Source: a virus
Reading direction: 5' to 3' (one strand)
DNA length: 64,000 bases
Virus record (IMG/VR): IMGVR_UViG_3300048571_000088
Location: 1 to 64,000 of that record
Below are positions 23,204 through 49,888 of this stretch, in pieces. The number at the start of each line of letters is the position of its first letter. Position 1 is the first letter of the stretch. Position numbers and translations under genes: made by a program. The notes under the pieces were generated by a model that was not told where the DNA came from, did not search any database, and saw only the letters and a program-made list of their open reading frames with translations.

Positions 23204-23350
23204 AGAATGTAGTATTATTTTAATTTGTTTGCCTTTAATAGGTTTTTGTGTACATACAAAAATTACTATCAACTGATTGTTAAATACAAATAATAATATT
23301 TAACACTTAGAAACTGATTTTATAAAAAAGTTGCTGTTATTACATTCTTT
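23204..23350 (-). repeat. tRNA-associated RNA element, copy 1 (P1-closed, long)
   Basis: Transcript order: AGAATGTA, then ATAACAGCAAC, about 120 nt, then TACATTCTG. The 8-bp stem and both conserved flanks match the other eight copies. The enclosed segment has a 9-bp hairpin (TGTTAAATA/TATTTAACA) but no tRNA. Confidence 0.65.
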
Positions 23351-25404: not shown

Positions 25405-25427
25405 TTTTAATCCTTGTAGTATAAATT

Positions 25428-25486
25428 CAGAATACTTTTTGTTTTATAAACTATATAAATTTTAAATTTGCTGTTAGTATTCTTTA
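25428..25486 (-). repeat. tRNA-associated RNA element, copy 2 (P1-closed)
   Basis: AGAATAC, TAACAGCAAAT, then hairpin TTTATA/TATAAA, then GTATTCTG. It lies five bases 3' of the tRNA-like gene at 25491 and ends about 25 bases before the next ATG. Confidence 0.75.
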
Positions 25487-26016: not shown

Positions 26017-26320
26017 ACTCTTTCAGTCTCTCAATAAAATTATTAACACTTAGGTTGTTATTTTTACAATATAACTCAATTTCTTCAAATATTTCATCAA
26101 GCTCTAGTTCATGAATGTGAACTTCTTCAAACATTACTGTATTAAAAGTAATATCCCCAAAACCTTCTAGATAAACAATAGAACTCCAACCACCTACATC
26201 CAAACCAGTTACTTTATATACTTGATCTGCAACTAAGTGTTTATTTGCACGTTCGTTATCGAGTTCTGTGCCGTGTTTTCCTAAGTACTTCACTGTAGTA
26301 ACTCTATCACTAAGTTTCAT
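25997..26320 (-). CDS. hypothetical protein, 107 aa (paralogue pair A)
   Basis: Similar over its length to residues 1-110 of the 221-aa protein at 23674. ATG is preceded by GGAAGATAA, a clear ribosome site. Overlaps the next gene by 20 bases. Confidence 0.7.
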   Translation of the reverse strand: MKLSDRVTTVKYLGKHGTELDNERANKHLVADQVYKVTGLDVGGWSSIVYLEGFGDITFNTVMFEEVHIHELELDEIFEEIELYCKNNNLSVNNFIERLKEYDLIGN

Positions 26321-26375
26321 TTATCTTCCTATGTTTATAATATAGTTTATTTAATTATATAAGTCAAAATTTAAG

Positions 26376-26440
26376 TCAGATTACATTCAATTATTAAATA
26401 AAAAGTTTAAATTTTGAAGGTTGCTGTTAGTAATCTTTAA
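26376..26440 (-). repeat. tRNA-associated RNA element, copy 3 (P1-closed)
   Basis: AGATTAC, TAACAGCAACC, P1 TTCAA/TTGAA, then GTAATCTG. Starts three bases after the CCA of the interrupted tRNA at 26442. Confidence 0.75.
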
Positions 26441-26441
26441 T

Positions 26442-26563
26442 TGGCCGAAAGAGTAGGATTTGAACCTACGTGTGCCGGTTCCCATTATAATATTTGCTGT
26501 TAATATTTTTTACAAAATATATTCATATATTACCGGTGCCTTACCAGACTTGGCTATCTTTCG
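26442..26563 (-). tRNA. interrupted tRNA, Gln-like body, insert in anticodon loop
   Basis: Acceptor CGAAAGA/TCTTTCG, discriminator G, encoded CCA, D arm GCCAAGTCTGGTAAGGC and T arm GTAGG-TTCAAAT-CCTAC. The anticodon stem CCGGT/ACCGG is split by about 46 extra nt holding the conserved element: P1 TAATAT/ATATTA, P2 hairpin ending TTGTAA, then AACAGCAA. TAAT occurs at both edges of the insert. Body and G73 look like tRNA-Gln, but the rejoined loop would read about AATGGGA, so the anticodon is unresolved. Confidence 0.8.
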
Positions 26564-26626
26564 ATTTATGTTTTATATTTAAAATGAATTACCTTATATA
26601 AAGCTAAAGTGTCAGTTAAGGGTGCT

Positions 26627-27010
26627 TTAAATAAATCTATCCCAAAAAGATTTTTTAGTTACTTTATTAGTGTGTATTATTGTATTAGTTTCTAGTATAT
26701 CTTCTTTTTGTTCTTTTATTTTAAAACTTTGAATAATCTGTTGTTGTTTTAAAGAAGCTTGTTTATTTTTTGCTAAAACGTAAGCAAGATAAATTTTTTC
26801 ACCTTGTTTTTCAGAAAAAACAGTCTCTCTTGACCCGCCAAAATAAACTTGAGTAATTGATTTATCTGCGATAGCTGACCAATATTCAATTTTAGGTTTA
26901 CATTTTATACTATAAAATGTAAAAGTTTCAAATACCCATTCATGAGAGTTATTAATTAAACTATCACAAAGTTTTTCTACAGTTTCGTCCATTACAGAAT
27001 AATCTAACAT
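26627..27010 (-). CDS. hypothetical protein, 127 aa
   Basis: Its C-terminus (VTKKSFWDRFI) resembles that of the upstream 210-aa protein (TIKKSFKNKFIDWM), suggesting a shared tail motif, perhaps for docking. Otherwise unrecognised. Confidence 0.65.
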   Translation of the reverse strand: MLDYSVMDETVEKLCDSLINNSHEWVFETFTFYSIKCKPKIEYWSAIADKSITQVYFGGSRETVFSEKQGEKIYLAYVLAKNKQASLKQQQIIQSFKIKEQKEDILETNTIIHTNKVTKKSFWDRFI

Positions 27011-27838: not shown

Positions 27839-27958
27839 TCAGAACGGCAGGGTTCGAACCTACGTCTCTATCTCCCAAAGATAATGTTTAAGAGTTGCTG
27901 TTTGTATTCTTTACAGAATAACTTAACTAAGCGCTTTAACCGACTAAGCTACGTTCTG
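27839..27958 (-). tRNA. interrupted tRNA-Pro(UGG)
   Basis: Acceptor CAGAACG/CGTTCTG with A73, D arm GCTTAGTCGGTTAAAGC, intact anticodon arm TTATC-TTTGGGA-GATAG (UGG), T arm GTAGG-TTCGAAC-CCTGC. A 47-nt insert (885-931 of this kb) lies between the D arm and the anticodon arm. It carries P1 TTAAG/CTTAA, P2 TTATTCT-GTAA-AGAATA and AACAGCAA. Removing it leaves a normal 73-nt tRNA. Genomic CAA follows A73. C1-G72 fits Pro identity (A73 too). Confidence 0.88.
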
Positions 27959-30589: not shown

Positions 30590-30722
30590 CTTTTAACAGA
30601 TTAGTATTTTTATCAAGTGGATTCGAACCACTGCCTTTTTTGAGTCAACAAAAACGCTCTAACCTCTAAGCTATGTTCCCTAATGGCGGGAAAGTTTAAA
30701 TTTGCTGTTACTAATCTTTAAT
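30590..30722 (-). repeat. tRNA-associated RNA element, copy 5 (split around permuted tRNA)
   Basis: P2 strands at 30709-30717 and 30598-30606 pair over 9 bp; the conserved TAACAGCAAAT follows the first strand and G follows the second. The permuted tRNA sits where P1 closes in the stand-alone copies. Confidence 0.8.
30614..30692 (-). tRNA. circularly permuted tRNA gene
   Basis: The transcript reads TTCCC-G-CCA (3' end of a tRNA), a 3-nt linker TTA, then GGGAACA and the tRNA body through the T arm AGTGG-TTCGAAT-CCACT and TG. Joining TG to TTCCC restores a perfect acceptor with GGGAACA, discriminator G and CCA. Element strands flank it: AGATTAGTA plus ACAGCAA upstream, TACTAATCTG downstream (9 bp). 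The anticodon loop is GAC (Val) or UGA, depending on how the T/A-rich stem pairs. Confidence 0.82.
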
Positions 30723-36190: not shown

Positions 36191-37663
36191 TTACTGCCAA
36201 TCGTAACGAGAAGAACTAAGAGTTTCTTTCATTACATTTAACGGAGTAAAATTATCAAAATCTGTATTGAAAATCGATTTGATAATAGATGGACTATAAC
36301 CTGAAACTAATGCAGCACCTTCAGTACTTTTTTTAACTGGTAGTGGTAAGCCATCAACACGTTGCTCTCCTCCGCAAATATTCCACCAAATAATATGTGG
36401 AGTTTTATAACCTGCTGCCTTAAACAACTCGTTAATAACTTTTTGTGTGGGTTTATTTCTGACACAAGAATCATTAATTTGCATATCTGTCAAAACAAGA
36501 ATAGCTGAAGGCATGTCTTGTTGTGGTACTTTATTTTTTGTTCCTTGATTTACTACGGCTTCAATCATCTTAAAGAAATTAGTACTATAACCCACACGAG
36601 AACGTCGTGTAGTAGTAATTTTACTTTGAAGAGTTTTTGAACCAGACAGTGAAACAAACTCAGGAGTGTCTGTAAAAGTCATAAACAAATCTTTAAAAGC
36701 AGACTTGTTATTACTGGCACAATAGATTCCCATAGATAAAGCAATATGCATAGCTGAGTACTTCCCATAAGAAATACTACTCATACTTCCAGAAACATCA
36801 ACAACAGGAAGAATTGAAACACCTTCTGGCATATAGTTTGGAAGAGACTTCCACAAAGCTTCTTGCGTCGGATCAACTGCAGACCCTACAGGGATTACTT
36901 CATGAGGCCACAAAGTAGAAGCATTGATTTTTGCTTGACCTTTATCTACTTTAGCTAGATATGCTGTGTACTCATCTGGAGCATGCAATTTAAAAGCTTT
37001 TCGATAAATATTATGAGCTTTACTTGGGACATGTTGGAACTTAATGTCTTTCCAGTTTTTAGCGCACATAGGTGTTTCAACTACACTTGTATTAGCAACT
37101 AAAAGTTGACGATACTGTTTAGGTGTTAGTTTAAGACGCTTTTGAAGTAATTGAGGAAGTAAGTCATAATTAGATTTACGTTCTTCTTTTTTACGCATTT
37201 GTCGGGGAAGCCACTTAGCAAGAAGTTTATTAGGTTCTTGTTTTTGTAATTCTTCTGTAATTAAATTAAGAATAAAATTACTTGAACGCTTTTGAGTTCC
37301 TTTAAGAATTTCAAAAATATCATCCCAACGACCTACTTCAACAAAAGCTTTTACTAAGTTTGTATCTGTGATTAAAGAAGCATCCTTTTCAGACAAGGCT
37401 AAAAGAATTTCACGAGAATTATCTCGAATACCTTTTCCGCCTCGAACATCTCGCATATGCAATAAGTTTCGAATTGCTAGGTCTTGATCTTCAGCAAAAG
37501 CATTCAAAAAATCATTAACTACAGATTTGTAATTAATGTTTCCAGACTTAGCAAAAAAGTCTAAATTAATGTTTTTAGTACTTTTATAAGCGACTTGACC
37601 GTTTTCAGTTGCAGTCTTATTACTTGTTTTGCTAGCAGATTCTACAAAAGAGTTAGTTGACAT
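36191..37663 (-). CDS. Ro60/TROVE-like protein with vWA domain (DUF2828-like)
   Basis: 490 aa. The N-terminal HEAT-like part has MRDVRGGKGIRD near 68-79 and EVGRWDDIF, both typical of Ro and DUF2828. The C-terminal vWA domain has a complete MIDAS DVSGSMS near 289-295 with TFTDTP and LTDMQ following. Bacterial Ro proteins bind Y RNAs and tRNA-like RNAs and work with exonucleases in RNA quality control. The structured RNAs in this window are possible partners. Confidence 0.75.
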   Translation of the reverse strand: MSTNSFVESASKTSNKTATENGQVAYKSTKNINLDFFAKSGNINYKSVVNDFLNAFAEDQDLAIRNLLHMRDVRGGKGIRDNSREILLALSEKDASLITDTNLVKAFVEVGRWDDIFEILKGTQKRSSNFILNLITEELQKQEPNKLLAKWLPRQMRKKEERKSNYDLLPQLLQKRLKLTPKQYRQLLVANTSVVETPMCAKNWKDIKFQHVPSKAHNIYRKAFKLHAPDEYTAYLAKVDKGQAKINASTLWPHEVIPVGSAVDPTQEALWKSLPNYMPEGVSILPVVDVSGSMSSISYGKYSAMHIALSMGIYCASNNKSAFKDLFMTFTDTPEFVSLSGSKTLQSKITTTRRSRVGYSTNFFKMIEAVVNQGTKNKVPQQDMPSAILVLTDMQINDSCVRNKPTQKVINELFKAAGYKTPHIIWWNICGGEQRVDGLPLPVKKSTEGAALVSGYSPSIIKSIFNTDFDNFTPLNVMKETLSSSRYDWQ

Positions 37664-37680: not shown

Positions 37681-37720
37681 CAGATTAGTTTAATTTTATT
37701 AGGTTGCTGACCTAATCTAT
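37681..37720 (-). repeat. tRNA-associated RNA element, copy 6 (P1-closed)
   Basis: AGATTAG, GTCAGCAACC, P1 TAAT/ATTA, then CTAATCTG. It lies just 3' of the tRNA at 37731 and ahead of the Ro-like gene. Confidence 0.7.
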
Positions 37721-37730
37721 AGGTTAATTT

Positions 37731-37844
37731 TGGAAACTAAAGACAGGACTTGAACCTGTAATTGTTGTAATAGTAAATAACTTACATACTACAAACCTCC
37801 GACTTTTTAGGTCAGAGCTGTTTACCTTTTACAGCACTTTAGTT
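37731..37844 (-). tRNA. tRNA with oversized variable arm, loop CTAAAAA
   Basis: Acceptor AACTAAA/TTTAGTT, discriminator U, encoded CCA, D arm GCTGT/ACAGC, anticodon arm CTGAC-CTAAAAA-GTCGG, T arm ACAGG-TTCAAGT-CCTGT. About 39 nt lie between the anticodon and T stems and pair as TAGTA/TACTA within TTG/CAA. That is far longer than normal. The loop reads AAA, one base from the Leu(UAA) loop CTTAAAA. It may hold a second kind of insert; TATG.TAAGTTA recurs in the tRNA at 2648. Confidence 0.65.
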
Positions 37845-40587: not shown

Positions 40588-40712
40588 AGCAAAGGGTGGG
40601 ATTTGAACCCACGTTTCTCCCTGGAAATGGAAACATAAATATGCTGTTAATATACTTTACAGGATATATTTTATTTGTTATAGAGTATCCTAGGCCGCTA
40701 GATGACCTTTGC
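40588..40712 (-). tRNA. interrupted tRNA-Glu(UUC)
   Basis: Acceptor GCAAAGG/CCTTTGC, discriminator U, D arm ATCTAGCGGCCTAGGAT as in bacterial tRNA-Glu, intact anticodon arm TTTCC-ATTTCCA-GGGAG (UUC), T arm GTGGG-TTCAAAT-CCCAC. A 52-nt insert (634-685 of this kb) between the D arm and anticodon arm has P1 AAATA/TATTT, P2 ATATATCC-TGTAAAG-TATATT and AACAGCAT. Removing it leaves 73 nt. Genomic CAA follows the discriminator. Confidence 0.87.
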
Positions 40713-48627: not shown

Positions 48628-49888
48628 AAGGCACCTTTTTTAAAGTAAAAACAGATAAAAGAGTAGGACAACTGTAAGTTGATTTTGCTAGATTACCAAG
48701 AGGTTTAACAACAATATCGTAACCTTCAGTATTAATTTCTGCTATAAAATTAACAAACTCTGATTGTGTAGGTTCCCATAAGTGATCTTTATGTCGAATT
48801 TCTTCTTCTTTGATACCATAATAAACATTAAAATCTTTATTAGGAACAGTAAGAATAATTGTTTCAACTTTTTTATCTACAAGAAATTGAAGAAGAGTAG
48901 AAGCTTCCTCTTTAGGAATATGTTCTAACACTTCAGTACACAAGACTACTTGAACATTCTCAGATAAATCTTCTTGAGTTTGTAAATAATCAAAAATACA
49001 TTGATTGTATAATTCTGTATTCTCAATTTCTCGTTTTTTAACAAACCACTCTAAAGATTCAAAAACATCTGGATCTTTTTCTACGGCGATAATATGTTTA
49101 AAAAGATTCTTAAGATGCTTAACATATAGTCCTTCTCCTGCTCCAAGATCAAGTAAAGTTTTATCGGCAGGATTAGGTAAGTCTTTTACTTCTTTAATAA
49201 TTGCTTTCAGACGTTGTTCACTGTTATTACCGAAATAAAAAGTGAATGGAGTAGTCTGATCAAAAAATAAAGAAGCTTGATTATGCTTTGCTACAGAATT
49301 TGCTTTGCTAATAAAGCTACAAAGACTAATATAATCTTGAGTGTAGCGTGGAAGAATTTCTTGATACTTTTCAAACTCTCCGTCACAAAAATAAAAATAA
49401 TCTGTTGTCTGGTATTGCATATAGCACCAAACACAAATTTTATTTAAAATGTCATGGATTGTATCACCTGTGACAGTCACTTTAAAATGATTTGCTGAGG
49501 TTAAAACTTCAAGGTTAATTCCATCTAAAATAACTTTAGGTCGAGGAACAAGGCACAAGAAACTAGCAAAAGAAGTAAAACCTTTTTCATCCATTTCGTG
49601 TTGTTTTTTAAAACAAGTTGAAAGATGATTTTGAATAAGTTTTAAATATAATTCAGGATTACATGTACTAGAATAATCTAAGTATTCAAAAGAATCAGAA
49701 TTCTTATTTGGAATCTTTGATAAGTACAAGCTAAAATCTTTAGCTACTTTTGGATCAGGGAACCAAGAGAAAGATTTGTACGTACTACAATTCTTTTTAA
49801 ACACCCCAGACTCAATTTGAGTCTGGGGGTTTTTATTTACAATGTATGACAAGTTTGGGTTGTCAGTGCAAATATTTAAAACAGCCAT
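48617..49888 (-). CDS. hen1: Hen1: RNA 3'-end 2'-O-methyltransferase
   Basis: 423 aa. C-terminal methyltransferase: SAM loop DLGAGEG at 247-253, metal ligands E-V-L-E-H at 319-323 and RHKDHLWEPTQSEF at 365-378, the signature of bacterial Hen1. The N-terminal 220 residues correspond to the Pnkp ligase-activating half. Hen1 methylates the 2'-OH at the break so the repaired RNA resists renewed cleavage. A complete Pnkp-Hen1 pair in a phage-like genome is notable. Confidence 0.95.
   Translation of the reverse strand: MAVLNICTDNPNLSYIVNKNPQTQIESGVFKKNCSTYKSFSWFPDPKVAKDFSLYLSKIPNKNSDSFEYLDYSSTCNPELYLKLIQNHLSTCFKKQHEMDEKGFTSFASFLCLVPRPKVILDGINLEVLTSANHFKVTVTGDTIHDILNKICVWCYMQYQTTDYFYFCDGEFEKYQEILPRYTQDYISLCSFISKANSVAKHNQASLFFDQTTPFTFYFGNNSEQRLKAIIKEVKDLPNPADKTLLDLGAGEGLYVKHLKNLFKHIIAVEKDPDVFESLEWFVKKREIENTELYNQCIFDYLQTQEDLSENVQVVLCTEVLEHIPKEEASTLLQFLVDKKVETIILTVPNKDFNVYYGIKEEEIRHKDHLWEPTQSEFVNFIAEINTEGYDIVVKPLGNLAKSTYSCPTLLSVFTLKKVPCGI

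Follow-up and report, generated by a model that had tools for sequence, protein, structure and literature searches.

A putative phage Y-RNA-like small RNA with a permuted tRNA mimic and its association with a Ro60-like gene

The stretch of DNA analysed here (the window) covers the first 64,000 nucleotides (nt) of the 242,588-base virus record IMGVR_UViG_3300048571_000088. Its minus strand holds a locus, termed E6, at which the 3' end of a tRNA including GCCA is encoded ahead of the tRNA 5' part and body, and the whole is surrounded by the two halves of a short element (Table 1). The element recurs elsewhere in the window, as a first sequence-only reading of the locus had claimed, and a gene for a Ro60-like protein lies on the same strand. 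The permuted order with its 3-nt linker, which that reading had described, is present in the sequence, and the pairing of the two bracketing strands over 9 base pairs (bp) was verified; this stem adjoins UAACAGCAA. Joining G67 to U68 does restore an acceptor stem of 7 bp. The D, anticodon and T arms follow GGGAACA and end at CCACTTG (30614). By its sequence, E6 RNA has a basal stem that joins its ends, an adjoining conserved internal loop with UAACAGCAA on one side and an AAAU-like strand on the other, and a complete permuted cloverleaf beyond, with the acceptor stem closed by the short loop GCCAUUA.

Table 1. Components of E6, further copies of the element and the Ro60-like gene in the window.
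Feature	Position	Strand	Evidence or remark
E6, permuted tRNA mimic on Y-like basal stem	30597-30719	-	sequence; fold
E6: basal stem 5' strand AGATTAGTA	30709-30717	-	pairs with 30598-30606
E6: conserved internal-loop motif TAACAGCAA	30702-30710	-	conserved in families; overlaps last bases of stem strand
E6: ATTTAAACT	30693-30701	-	between motif TAACAGCAA and TTCCC
E6: acceptor stem 3' strand TTCCC (68-72)	30688-30692	-	sequence
E6: GCCA (G73 + CCA)	30684-30687	-	sequence
E6: TTA linker, 3 nt, closes acceptor hairpin	30681-30683	-	sequence
E6: tRNA 5' part and body to position 67, 8-nt anticodon loop	30614-30680	-	Rfam, ARAGORN, sequence
E6: GGGAACA, start of tRNA 5' part	30674-30680	-	sequence
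E6: ATAAAAA between CCACTTG and 3' stem strand	30607-30613	-	sequence
E6: basal stem 3' strand TACTAATCT, then G	30598-30606	-	sequence
E1, possible further split element, cargo not recognised	23204-23348	-	R2 19.6 bits, E-value 0.017
E2, closed form, outside training alignment	25427-25485	-	R1 42.5 bits, E-value 2.3e-7
E3, closed form with anticodon-arm hairpin ttaaa(CTTTTTA)tttaa	26376-26438	-	R1 55.2 bits, E-value 1.5e-10; member of training alignment A1
E4, Pro-like tRNA with inserted hairpin form, element 26487-26527	26445-26563	-	Rfam; R2 43.0 bits; member of training alignment A2
E5, tRNA-Pro-like gene, hairpin form in anticodon stem, element 27888-27928	27839-27958	-	Rfam; R2 25.5 bits
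Ro60-like protein gene, DUF2828 + DUF7788, PHROG 850 'RNA-binding protein'	36191-37663	-	domains, fold comparison
E8, degenerate closed form (AGATTAG..GTCAGCAA..CTAATCTG), just upstream of Ro60-like gene	37681-37718	-	sequence
E9, tRNA-Glu-like gene with hairpin form, element 40634-40674	40589-40712	-	R2 29.5 bits, E-value 8.6e-6
E7, weak tRNA with hairpin form, element 43821-43861	43773-43878	-	Rfam 25.6 bits; R2 18.5 bits

The Rfam tRNA model scored linear E6 at 36.0 bits, covering model positions 6-65 only, and ARAGORN returned no tRNA from the linear form. After circularisation in silico, a wrapped ARAGORN tRNA appeared in 39 of 224 trims, every time as 'tRNA-???'. Chance controls yielded a wrapped tRNA from one of 3000 random circles drawn from the window, and a perfect partner no more than 250 nt away for 123 of 20,000 random 9-mers. 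The free fold of the whole RNA (z -2.26) retained the 9-bp stem and the T arm, not the full cloverleaf. The anticodon loop has 8 nt (GTTGACTC), a feature absent from the sequence-only reading, and E6 is therefore without a clear isotype. E6 thus has the order of halves and the tRNA-restoring junction of a permuted tRNA gene; a regular anticodon loop of 7 nt and a clear isotype are missing.

Between 23 and 44 kb, the minus strand repeatedly carries the motif (U)AACAGCAA next to a stem, and three arrangements can be told apart. In the hairpin form, two stem strands enclose a small loop (GUAA, for instance), UAACAGCAA follows, and the unit sits within tRNA genes of normal order; a split form surrounds the permuted tRNA of E6, and a closed short form encloses 30-60 nt. 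Copies were scored with two models, R1 and R2, for which thresholds differ between comparisons and are given with each result. E8 had no R1 match at an E-value of 5 or below, and the rest of the record contained no ARAGORN tRNA, no R1 match at an E-value ≤1 and no R2 match at ≤0.02. Adjoining the Ro60-like gene, positions 37735-37843 (minus strand) match a tRNA with a long insert between the anticodon and T arms. The region of the tRNA mimics also encodes a bacterial RNA-repair pair, namely Pnkp-like (kinase, phosphoesterase, ligase) and Hen1-like genes (46255-49888, minus strand).

Loci similar to E6 are common in viral contigs, and the locus is not unique. The counts from the underlying pattern scans (motif plus T arm) are lower bounds and not a sample of all viruses. 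Both scans required AACAGCAA near a T arm, so that places where the insertion lies at a distance from the T arm, as in E6, are under-represented. A slightly tighter pattern applied to 257 billion bases of bacterial and archaeal genomes recovered only 11 stretches, all on contigs of metagenome-assembled genomes. Among the matches listed, a cloverleaf-fitting script assigned 87 of 229 distinct places to the permuted and 54 to the hairpin class, and 88 fit neither; later analyses of classified places, including the CCA test, used the 104 of 141 places with an arm score of at least 7.2. One relative (L281) has the same acceptor-stem type as E6 (GAAGCA-GCCA-TTT-TGCTT). A tRNA-Pro(UGG) on contig L066 has permuted halves and a good fit without the usual stem; a GGGCU/AGCCC pairing may bracket it. 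Blast searches for isolates with whole loci returned ordinary tRNAs or nothing.

A scan for the motif alone located split partners at two distances, 30-61 nt (59 places) and 75-130 nt (65 places), with 11 elsewhere. The split forms with a tRNA-sized insert yielded a wrapped standard tRNA upon circularisation in 52 of 65 cases, and in none as encoded or after shuffling. In an independent control, 7.2% of 597 motif places had the hairpin form and 22.6% the split form, compared with 0.64% and 1.6% of 7487 places for 60 letter-shuffled motifs. The two letters AT before the second strand of split forms are fixed by choice because the search demanded them; the G after the stem (93%) was not demanded. 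Alignment A1 retained only those short forms that reached a minimum length and had a G following the stem (53 of 59), which makes its pairing true by construction, and alignment A2 retained 33 of 43. Short copies carry no tRNA and often consist of an anticodon arm alone. A good hairpin with a 7-nt loop was found in 34 of 56 distinct short inserts (shuffle mean 14.8), and 19 had Y32, U33 and R37 (1.2 expected from shuffles), UUU being the commonest anticodon.

In seven loci, the short element is followed directly by an open reading frame of the same family as the Ro60-like gene of the window, and DUF7788 was detected in 34 of 42 element-bearing viral records. Because these 42 records were picked by the element, a comparison set was drawn of 31 viral records of at least 60 kb, chosen by an unrelated NAMPT gene regardless of the element. 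DUF7788 was present in 13 of them and an R1 match (E-value ≤0.01) in 14. Both occurred together in 12 and neither in 16, with protein only in one and RNA only in two (one-sided Fisher p 7.6e-6); in the single protein-only record (G054) the gene is cut by the contig end. Conversely, R1 or R2 matches (E-value ≤0.05) were found in 15 of 20 loci centred on the Ro60-like gene, often in rows beside it with all forms mixed. Statistically, these RNAs thus go with, and often directly adjoin, a gene for a protein of predicted Ro60/TROVE fold.

The AlphaFold2 model of the window protein (pLDDT 76, pTM 0.65) points to a TROVE plus vWA fold. The first five PDB rows in Foldseek were Ro60/TROVE, the best being Thermus phage phiLo Ro60 (E-value 7.7e-9), and the names in the top rows are phage phiLo Ro60, TROVE, Ro autoantigen and human Ro60. 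In VIA-align, the first ten rows were Ro60, TROVE or Rsr (Z 17.7-11.9 over about 385-405 residues). Homologs with DUF2828/DUF7788 occur in 681 of 50,697 phage records, and those of mycobacteriophages carry the annotation 'Ro-like RNA binding protein'.

Isolated phages carry the association as well. Among 16 regions around homologs in named phages, which were chosen by us from listed rows and not at random, nine had R1 or R2 matches at an E-value ≤0.05: Listeria AG20, Campylobacter CP30A, Staphylococcus SEP9, Salmonella Felix O1, Mycobacterium Samty, Bacillus FADO, Synechococcus BUCT-ZZ01 and B23, and Enterococcus EFGrKN. Samty has a permuted tRNA within the stem beside its Ro-like gene (Rfam YrlA 37.9 bits), and AG20 has three tandem elements, by position upstream of the gene. 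In another phage of this genus, Listeria phage CKA15, the region upstream of an Rsr-like gene yields noncoding RNAs of very high abundance, which were suggested to be Y RNAs, although the accessible parts of that paper give no motif or structure (PMC12282133). A ROOL RNA match in AG20 (L421:1461-2012, record positions ~26,193-26,744; 90.1 bits, cut-off 99.1) overlaps by number, in unaligned genomes, the most transcribed noncoding region of CKA15 at 26,236-26,727 (accessible part of PMC12282133). This CKA15 region looks like ROOL RNA rather than the elements described here. Annotated oversized tRNAs of Aeromonas phage Aeh1 (Val, L423:7196-7317) and Citrobacter phage Ci1 (pseudo, L415:4985-5098) resemble hairpin-form copies with a variant motif and were missed by both R1 and R2.

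Bacterial Y RNAs are permuted tRNA mimics, and the closest resemblance of E6 is to one of them that binds Ro60, YrlA (RF02553). Paired ends in a basal stem, a conserved internal loop, a permuted tRNA-like part with a closed acceptor stem, and a (predicted) Ro60 homolog encoded nearby in the same genome are common to both. The phage elements differ in holding a whole anticodon arm, in their conserved motif (UAACAGCAA/AAAU), in including anticodon-only and normal-order forms, and, for E6, in a junction at the acceptor stem. Many permuted relatives scored 26-44 bits with Rfam YrlA, below the cut-off of 69 bits. The YrlA domain resembles the D, T and acceptor arms (PMC8394870), and PMC12282133 cites Chen et al. 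2014 for YrlA in mycobacteriophages. In a search whose reach did not extend to the principal publications of the Wolin group on Y RNAs, no paper was found that deals with phage tRNA genes of permuted order or with the motif in phages. It is very likely already in print that Y RNAs of mycobacteriophages mimic permuted tRNAs; the complete anticodon arms and the anticodon-only versions are new here.

Other known RNAs share parts of the design. Dictyostelid Class I RNA (RF01414) has an AAG start, an end-joining stem, a CUGU end, a variable middle and, adjoining the 5' strand, a conserved motif with CUUACAGCAA as its last letters (Rfam consensus). It differs in being eukaryotic, with an RRM protein as its known partner (PMC7919456, accessible part), and kinship with the phage elements is unproven. 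Its model matched E2 (29.4 bits) and E3 (24.0 bits) weakly, below the cut-off of 41.5, and did not match E6. The weak matches (24-29 bits) at 25427-25485 and 26377-26435 of the window, L101:572-625 and L230:1063-1123 have an AAG start, a CAGCAA motif and a CUG end in common. Permuted tRNA genes of algae and archaea have the same order of halves, and removal of the linker would restore a tRNA. In the phage loci, by contrast, acceptor linkers are usually of 4-8 nt, many relatives have no tRNA and no endonuclease gene was found in carriers. Permuted group I intron-exon genes likewise place a split element around exons, but the phage element is only about 40 nt long. This candidate was rejected because RF00028 had no match in the window; by eye, L084 and L132 resemble group I introns, and both were left out of the element counts.

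We suggest that the locus probably encodes a phage Y-RNA-like small RNA of a Ro60 ribonucleoprotein that carries a permuted tRNA mimic. The E6 RNA would remain linear and unspliced, the Ro60-like protein would grip the basal stem and internal loop, and the tRNA part would be put on display as a mimic. The displayed tRNA or bare anticodon arm might further recruit or divert a tRNA-binding enzyme. YrlA recruits PNPase, and a nuclease of this kind, an RNA-repair enzyme or a host anticodon nuclease (for which the RNA would be a decoy) are candidate targets, the second because the phage has Pnkp/Hen1 genes. The anticodon-only forms cannot be tRNAs, which supports the Y-like reading. Several observations weigh against it. 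E6 had no match to Rfam YrlA (cut-off 69 bits) and is for this reason classed as Y-RNA-like, not as YrlA; it was detected by R2 at an E-value of 0.074 only, retains CCA and sits 5.5 kb from the Ro60-like gene. Most permuted and hairpin-form copies have perfect, varied anticodon loops that a mere scaffold would not need. DUF7788, TROVE and PHROG 850 were all absent from 8 of 42 element-bearing records. At the sequence level, the window protein had no match to Pfam TROVE, and vWA-only proteins follow next in VIA-align at Z 11.1, a value the vWA domain alone reaches. The RNA binding attributed to the Ro60-like protein is suggested by association only.

A permuted tRNA gene with a minimal intron, as the sequence-only reading had proposed, appears unlikely. 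The element would be excised, the exon ends joined and the linker processed to give a working tRNA; the hairpin form would be the same intron in normal order, and the Ro60-like protein might help splicing. Such a gene would account for the exact tRNAs that remain after removal of the element, as in the split copies that circularise to standard tRNAs, and for the anticodon arms with U33 and purine 37 restored at 28|29 junctions in many copies. CCA is kept as in neighbouring genes in 7 of 13 hairpin-form genes, and element flanks show some pairing (z 2.0-5.3), which in the hairpin form is weak (z 2.0, equalled by 4 of 200 re-pairings). Against these stand the loss of CCA and short closing loops in the permuted copies, whose linkers have a median of 6 nt. 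NCCA was present in 8 of the 61 permuted copies; for loci whose ordinary tRNAs mostly carry it, the figure was 6 of 33 (ordinary tRNAs in the same loci had CCA in 486 of 741, by a laxer test). A33 would replace U33 upon element removal in six Gly(GCC) hairpin-form genes (L196, L216, L218, L222, L228, L238) and in E4 by our reading, and the anticodon loop of E6 would have 8 nt. No RNA-splicing enzyme was common to carriers among the ligases and the archaeal-type endonuclease searched: PNKP ligase occurred in 0 of 41 element-bearing records, RtcB, Rnl1 and Rnl2-like ligases in 3, 8 and 22 of 42, and the bulge-helix-bulge-type endonuclease tRNA_int_endo (PF01974) in 0 of 42 viral records, that of the window included. 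Splicing is thus not supported, given the tRNA-free forms, short closing loops, missing CCA, A33, lack of a common enzyme and tight link to the Ro60-like gene, and the element has the shape of bacterial Y RNAs. A common ligase as partner of the element was rejected since no ligase family is common to carriers, a bulge-helix-bulge intron by eye since the intron start does not pair to the second exon, and a self-splicing small ribozyme since no Rfam ribozyme matched the elements. Also unlikely is a Ro60-like ribonucleoprotein that acts as a tRNA re-joining machine, binds UAACAGCAA and removes the element as the smallest known intron (~40 nt). If true, permuted genes would give circular pre-tRNAs and anticodon-only cassettes tiny circular anticodon arms, and tRNA finders would be overlooking hundreds of permuted or interrupted tRNA genes in phages.

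The proposal that these RNAs offer tRNAs or anticodon arms as decoys to host anticodon nucleases is a tentative one; it overlaps the Y-RNA-like reading because it concerns a use of the same ribonucleoprotein, not a different structure. The UUU anticodon is a PrrC/PARIS target. The excess of anticodon hairpins and of Y32, U33 and R37 among the short forms, the preponderance of UUU and the RNA-repair genes in the same phage are consistent with a decoy, although such anticodons are favoured in AT-rich phages anyway. A decayed or chance rearrangement of a tRNA gene, or an assembly error such as the sequence-only reading had allowed for, would suit the 8-nt anticodon loop of E6 and is very improbable: it is contradicted by the recurrence of the same architecture in isolates and in independent contigs by the dozen, and L281 repeats even the acceptor-stem type.

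Further structured RNAs were observed in large viral contigs, namely a permuted tmRNA match in one of 302 kb (L148:417-609) and ROOL and OLE matches in one of 402 kb (L105:7982-8394 and 2050-2137).

The association connects DUF2828/DUF7788, a protein family widespread in phages to which Pfam assigns no function, with Ro60 and provides it with a recognisable RNA partner. tRNA finders miss or misname these genes, which should be considered in annotation. If the design shared with Dictyostelid Class I RNA is true, it would link phages with an RNA class of amoebae. Carriers are already in culture. With RNAs that display a whole tRNA or an anticodon arm alone, it becomes testable whether phage Ro60 particles lure or steer enzymes that cut tRNAs, repair tRNAs or degrade RNA.
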